This document shows, in pieces, positions 12,655-13,482 of a DNA stretch of 64,000 nucleotides. This DNA comes from Anaeromyxobacter sp. Fw109-5 (GTDB lineage: Bacteria > Myxococcota > Myxococcia > Myxococcales > Anaeromyxobacteraceae). The DNA lies in NCBI RefSeq assembly GCF_000017505.1, contig NC_009675.1, positions 2,294,001 through 2,358,000 on the forward strand, in the 5' to 3' direction. Below the pieces are notes generated by a model. The model made no database searches and was not told the DNA's origin. It was given only the letters and a program-made list of their open reading frames with translations. A program made the translations under genes and the position numbers. Each line of letters begins with the position of its first letter. Position 1 is the stretch's first letter.

Positions 12655-12848
12655 CGGTTCCTCCGGACATCGTGGGTGACGCCAGACCGGGTCGCGGAAC
12701 CAACAGTGCGAGTATTCGCCCAGTACCCACGGTCCGGGAGTCCCACGTTCCAGGGCGTAGTCCAGTGTGCGACGCGGTGGTCTCGCAGCGATCTCGCGCG
12801 CCTGCGGACGCGGCGCGGAGCCGCGCGGCGCGAGGCCGCGAGCTCATC

Positions 12849-13238
12849 TCAGCGTTGACCGGTCTCCACGGGCTTCCCGGCCGCGATCCAGCCGGAGATG
12901 CCGTCGGTCATCACCCACAGTGTCCTGTAGCCGAGCTGGGCCGCCTCACGGGCGGCCTCGTGACTGGCAGTTCACCGCGGACCCGAGCAGTAGAAGACCA
13001 GCCTCGCGTCGCGATCCTCCGGCAGCACCTCGCGCAGCGGCCCGTCGCCGGCGAACCGCGCGCCGGGGAGGTGATGCCGCTCGAACAGATCGCGGACGTT
13101 GGCGTCGACGATCGTCACGCCGGGGGCGCCGAGCATCTTCTCCACGTCCGAGATGGACGCGACGCGAAACGGCTCGCTGCCGCCGCGCGAGCCGCAACCG
13201 AGCGCCAGCGCGATGACGACCCCCAGGCTCCGACGCAT
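12849..13238 (-). CDS. rhodanese-like lipoprotein with in-frame TGA; candidate selenoprotein
   Basis: Rhodanese fold of 129 residues if the TGA at 12972-12974 is read through, 88 if not. The N-terminus has a lipobox (ALALGC, Cys at residue 15), so it is probably a membrane-anchored periplasmic sulfur or redox protein. Next come DVEKML, VTIVDANVRDLFERHHLPGA and the active loop VFYCSGPR with Cys84. Codon 89 is TGA, followed in the same frame by TASHEAAREAAQLGYRTLWV and DGISGWIAAGKPVE, the normal rhodanese end. From memory, related proteins have C-x4-C-x-A-S here, so TGA replaces a cysteine. The ATG at 13238 follows GGAGG. A point nonsense mutation is the alternative. No selenocysteine synthesis gene is in this window. 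Confidence 0.6.
12939..12957 (-). promoter_or_regulatory. hairpin 14 nt after the in-frame TGA, SECIS-like
   Basis: On the minus strand, GGCCGCC, the loop CGTGA and GGCGGCC form a perfect 7-bp stem. It starts 14 bases after the TGA, which puts the loop 21 bases downstream with G as its second base. Bacterial SECIS elements are usually a short stem-loop with the loop some 16-37 bases after UGA and a G among its first two bases, so geometry fits. A caution: the DNA encodes EAAREAA, and such Ala-rich repeats form hairpins in GC-rich genes anyway. Confidence 0.4.
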
Positions 13239-13260
13239 CTGCACCTCCGGGGCAACCTCT

Positions 13261-13482
13261 AAACGACCGTGCGCGATTCGGAAACAGCGCGGCGAAGCCG
13301 CGCCCGCGGGACGGCGCGCGAGCCCCGAGGGGCGAAGCGCGCCCGGGCCCCGCGTAGCAGGGGTGGGGCCCCGACGAGCTTCGCTCGGCGGGGCGGGGGC
13401 GCAGCCCCCGTCAGAACATGGCTAAACCATGGCGTGATTCGCGACACCGAAGGTGATCGCGAATCACGAACCATGGTTTAGC
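13261..13482. repeat. array of consecutive hairpins ending in a 62-base palindrome
   Basis: The 300-base gap between the rhodanese-like and STAS-like genes is nearly all inverted repeats. Perfect stems occur at 13287-13303 (7 bp, GAA loop) and 13394-13410 (7 bp, GCA loop). A nested stem lies at 13314-13342, a CGAGC/GCTCG stem near 13374-13386, and a further GGGGCCCC-type stem near 13343-13374. It ends with a near-perfect palindrome at 13421-13482 whose outer arms are GCTAAACCATGG and CCATGGTTTAGC. Both strands are open for about 70 codons, which follows from the symmetry; I do not call a gene. It resembles a REP/MITE-like element. Confidence 0.65.

Follow-up and report, generated by a model that had tools for sequence, protein, structure and literature searches.

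Rhodanese-like selenoproteins are already on record. A 2026 review (PMC13188914) recognizes five forms; it cites Zhang and Gladyshev 2005 for the first, which combines domain PF00581 with the motif UxxS and has WP_010941598.1 as its example. A selenoprotein that contains a rhodanese-like domain was described from a marine deltaproteobacterium in 2021 (PMC8318568). Therefore, the kind is known. The 2006 list of 11 selenoproteins for Anaeromyxobacter dehalogenans contains no rhodanese (PMC1794560), and the member analyzed here, together with its Anaeromyxobacter family, appears to be unlisted in the searchable literature, which leaves out most subscription journals and all supplements. The gene lies in a 64,000-nt stretch of the Anaeromyxobacter sp. 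Fw109-5 genome (the window), within one contig of 5,277,990 bases.

Comparison with the closest described systems showed both likenesses and differences. First, the product resembles form 1 in its PF00581 domain and in its U-T-A-S, which fits UxxS, as do the U-G-Q-S and U-R-G-S of some homologues with a hairpin at the same position; this comparison is by motif and domain only, and the table in the review (PMC13188914) gives neither export nor C-x4-U spacing for form 1. Second, no NCBIfam model reached its own cut-off with this protein. The best match was TsoB (NF045694; E 8.6e-13), a rhodanese/DsbD fusion-like selenoprotein with the motif UxxxxU, and this model was matched by 21 of 21 aligned family members. 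By motif, the spacing of the two redox residues is the same. However, TsoB spans 572 positions with a DsbD-like fusion and two Sec, whereas the present protein has C-x4-U, one Sec, and no DsbD part, and its 47.2 bits against a cut-off of 805 place it outside TsoB. Third, NF041203 (rhodanese_LYCAU "(seleno)protein," form 3, CxU) shares a single rhodanese domain, a similar length, and the occurrence of Sec forms, but the score here was 33.6 bits against a cut-off of 115, and Sec stands in C-x4-U rather than C-x-U. Finally, Geobacter ExtH is likewise an exported rhodanese lipoprotein of a metal-reducing bacterium (PMC6148476), but it is a 49-kDa protein (PMC5877670) encoded in a cytochrome/porin cluster and is not described as a selenoprotein (PMC6148476).

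Gene frame and predicted protein

The gene occupies 12849..13238 on the minus strand and consists of a 130-codon frame interrupted by one TGA only. The original prediction had given exactly these coordinates, which belong to the minus strand, and was also right in placing 88 residues ahead of the TGA and 41 codons, the stop among them, behind it. As read from the sequence, the start is the ATG at 13238-13236, with a Shine-Dalgarno sequence GGAGG at 13244..13248, 5 nt before it. The in-frame TGA lies at 12972..12974, and the final stop TGA (12851-12849) follows 40 codons later. With the internal TGA read as U, the product counted from ATG 13238 has 129 residues, including Sec89 (residue 91 in P0002), and the motif around the recoded site is LVFYC-SGPR-U-TASHEAAREAA. 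Three lines of evidence indicate that the gene is full length and encodes an exported rhodanese-like selenoprotein with a single domain: the TGA=U translation, the PF00581 match over the whole domain, and homologues that align through the TGA. The long ORF that overlaps the gene on the plus strand (12672-13262) is a mechanical one and does not affect this reading.

The read-through product matched the Pfam Rhodanese family PF00581 across the TGA (residues 32-121 of P0002; E 1.2e-11, 45.4 bits, cut-off 22.2). An AlphaFold2 model built from 20 sequences, with Cys in place of Sec, has a rhodanese fold (mean pLDDT 90.3, pTM 0.79) that is closest to 6mxv, 3nhv, and other rhodaneses, and the sequence profile gives rhodaneses too. 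The model thus shares its fold with GlpE, YgaP, and BH2092 (PDB 1gmx, 5hbo, and 3nhv, respectively), which have no Sec. Cys84 (codon 12987..12989) is the first residue of the C-x4-U loop and an invariant column in alignments A1 and A3. Its site is where rhodaneses carry their catalytic Cys, and it is the presumed catalytic residue here.

The original prediction had described an exported lipoprotein. Export is supported by signal-like N termini, seen by eye throughout the family; in this respect the protein would differ from the rhodanese domain of YgaP, which is cytoplasmic. GlpE is cytoplasmic as well. The lipoprotein part would fit this copy, in which residues 11 to 15 read LALGC and presumably fit the PROSITE lipobox pattern, with Cys15 (codon 13194..13196, read from the translation) as its last residue, and for a minority of relatives. 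Most homologues lack this Cys by eye, and most relatives have signal-peptidase-I-like sites at the end of the N-terminal stretch, so they look like cleaved periplasmic proteins. Since an N-terminal signal and lipobox precede a single rhodanese domain, the present protein would be exported and probably lipid anchored.

Possible function and gene neighborhood

Sulfurtransferase activity may be inferred at the level of the fold, and a role in sulfur transfer or thiol redox chemistry is somewhat favored for the protein. The active-site loop would be C84-S-G-P-R-U89, in which Cys84 may accept the sulfur and Sec89 may resolve or activate Cys84 through a selenenyl-sulfide. Such chemistry would allow thiols or sulfane sulfur to be transferred or reduced rapidly outside the inner membrane, and relatives in genomes without selB would do the same job with Cys-x4-Cys.

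A different role for the same Sec-containing protein is that it mainly handles or senses metals or selenium and tellurium oxyanions and is not a sulfurtransferase. Exported rhodanese lipoproteins such as Geobacter ExtH are encoded within clusters for extracellular electron transfer, and in Geobacter the reduction of selenite and tellurite is impaired when extI is lost (PMC6148476, PMC5877670). However, no such cluster was found beside this gene or its examined relatives, and the neighbors differ between lineages, which leaves a metal or oxyanion role unlikely. In most of the Anaeromyxobacteraceae checked, the gene is convergent beside thiC and enolase genes (names assigned by reading sequences), and in family f7 and three MAG loci it adjoins an OPT transporter; in this genome it lies beside neither. 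A connection with thiamine synthesis by way of thiC was rejected in view of the convergent gene orientation and the export of the protein. No conserved operon pointing to a substrate was seen among the loci checked, and these neighborhoods gave no function. As a separate observation, the family genes at L058, L059, L060, L064, L072, L074, and L097 to L100 adjoin an OPT oligopeptide transporter, with a gene order that varies by lineage.

SECIS hairpin and selenocysteine machinery

The preferred reading is that Sec is inserted at the TGA. A hairpin, GGCCGCC-CGUGA-GGCGGCC, lies at 12939..12957 on the minus strand (loop 12950-12946); its 7 bp, its 5-nt loop, and its start 14 nt after the TGA are as originally claimed. 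The bSECIS model, as given in PMC13188914, allows a 3- to 9-nt loop with a G in its first two bases, a 4- to 16-bp stem, a distance of 16 to 37 nt from the UGA, and an MFE of at most -7.5. The hairpin falls within these limits, with the loop CGUGA 21 nt after the UGA, G at the second place of the loop followed by U, a 7-bp stem, and -15.6 kcal/mol. No Rfam family matched it.

Comparison among homologues supported the proposal that this hairpin is the Sec signal. In a gap-free alignment of 30 TGA genes (L046 and L067, the remaining two of 32, have hairpins outside the common register and were left out), 97.6% of the pair cells were paired, both sides had changed in four of the seven stem pairs, and the covariation score was above that of all 500 shuffles. 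All seven pairs formed in 25 of 32 TGA genes compared to 1 of 25 Cys genes. For the pairs that join two third codon positions, which are hardly constrained by the protein, the TGA genes had 89 of 96 paired and the Cys genes 34 of 75, and after thinning the counts were 62 of 69 and 32 of 72, respectively. Of 32 TGA genes, 29 open the loop with an Arg codon, either CGT or CGG and never CGC, whereas Arg in the long ORFs of the window is encoded by CGC 56% of the time and by CGT 4%; one TGA gene has Ser AGT at the loop start and keeps the GU. The loop of this family's clean SECIS constrains the protein sequence. Against synonymous shuffles, the TGA genes averaged a z score of -1.6 and the Cys genes +0.7, and this gene alone was borderline (p 0.06); a single codon table served for the hairpin tests and the sequences are related, so p-values overstate independence and are to be taken as guides. 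Many genomes share the TGA, the open frame behind it, and the hairpin, all in the same place, which rules out chance.

A hairpin of the same dimensions, GGCGGCC-AGCGA-GGCCGCC (7 bp, 5-nt loop), is kept at the SECIS position by one Cys homologue (L045, in the selB-positive genome G021), perhaps after a recent Sec-to-Cys change or by chance.

All four genes of the machinery that the original prediction had pointed to, selA, selB, selC, and selD, were found in the Anaeromyxobacter genome. The tRNA-Sec gene (selC, anticodon UCA) is at 2230996-2231090, selB at 4858634 (325 bits against a cut-off of 242), selA at 4872486 (545 bits), and selD at 4028582 (397 bits). The selD gene (4028582-4029508, minus strand; L106) has one internal in-frame TGA, within SHGAG-U-ACK, with a stem-loop just behind it, and this provides a second, independent sign that the genome decodes Sec. 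By the proposed mechanism, SelB with Sec-tRNA(Sec) would bind the hairpin, which begins 14 nt past the UGA, so that translation continues with Sec89 rather than ending.

TGA or cysteine in the homologues

In 60 related genomes, the best 29 matches comprised 23 with exactly one TGA and 6 with none; an in-frame TAA or TAG occurred in none of the 29. The TGA column is the last residue of FYC-x4-[U/C], five residues past the FYC cysteine, and every homologue read at this column has either TGA or Cys. Cys was present where TGA was absent, in line with the original prediction, and the downstream frame was kept open in the close relatives checked for a break. A scan of a named collection added TGA forms from Myxococcota and a few MAGs labeled Beta- or Proteobacteria, along with many Cys forms, and the class sampled around a Desulfuromonadales MAG (L076) contributed the TGA homologues with U-G-Q-S or U-R-G-S.

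An alternative reading of the codon is a true stop, in which case the gene would either encode a truncated protein of 88 residues or be a pseudogene in decay. The standard-code ORF does end at the TGA, and the 88-residue part holds the signal and most of the domain (the listed ORF starts at an upstream GTG). However, the 40 downstream codons stay open and alignable in divergent genomes, with full-length matches 46 to 55% identical, and the recurrence of the same TGA column, the Cys homologues, and the SECIS covariation also speak against termination, which we regard as very improbable. A faulty base in sequencing or assembly, or a recent point mutation, could turn TGC or TGT into TGA by a single change, yet this TGA is shared by many genomes that were sequenced independently, including MAGs and the single-contig genomes G002 (probably A. 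dehalogenans), G005, and A. oryzae Red232 of the same genus (G007 and L053, which cover the same place), leaving this explanation a negligible probability. From these sequence comparisons, Sec is almost certainly inserted at the TGA (12974-12972), and gene callers stopping there would lose the last third of the protein together with the Sec residue.

The distribution of selB agreed with Sec insertion. Each of the 21 TGA genomes with a completeness of at least 85% had a selB hit over the cut-off (one of them, G003, was counted by its single TGA without the column itself being read), compared to 20 of 30 other genomes (Fisher p 0.0024). Two further genomes with TGA copies, G008 and G059, had no selB hit over the cut-off and are 66 and 61% complete, respectively. 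In the selB-less genomes G028, G029, G042, and G043, close homologues have Cys at the column. A tree of 55 domains over 105 columns, with many forks unresolved, suggested about eight Sec/Cys changes, at least four of them forced by well-supported branches. Substitution counts behind the TGA were mixed; some pairs were rich in third-position changes, and others were too close or too distant to decide.

We tentatively propose, with somewhat less than even confidence, a distinct and widespread subfamily of exported C-x4-U rhodanese selenoproteins in Myxococcota, Desulfuromonadales relatives, and a few Pseudomonadota MAGs. It would lie outside the curated models and have been missed in the published Anaeromyxobacter selenoproteomes, with Sec and Cys exchanged repeatedly and the SECIS loop dictating an Arg codon. 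The family offers natural Sec/Cys pairs for testing what Sec contributes to an exported rhodanese.

The genome also carries a second rhodanese paralogue (3471909-3472187, plus strand; L048), which falls in a separate clade of the tree. Its frame contains a single TGA, at the column of Sec89 (FYCRGAG-U-TLSHEAA), and the same hairpin is present, here with the loop CGUGC. Through these two genes, Anaeromyxobacter, which serves for studies of metal and halogen respiration, gains a well-supported selenoprotein and a further paralogue. Another family match, in A. oryzae (G007:C1:1426519-1426902, minus strand; L105), has two in-frame TGAs. A scan of the window for other recoded TGAs gave three weak candidates, one of them clearly the end of a gene ahead of coaD. 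An inverted repeat around "aaccatgg" (gctaaaccatggcgtgattcgcga ... tcgcgaatcacgaaccatggtttagc) lies upstream of the rhodanese gene start, at window positions 13418-13481.
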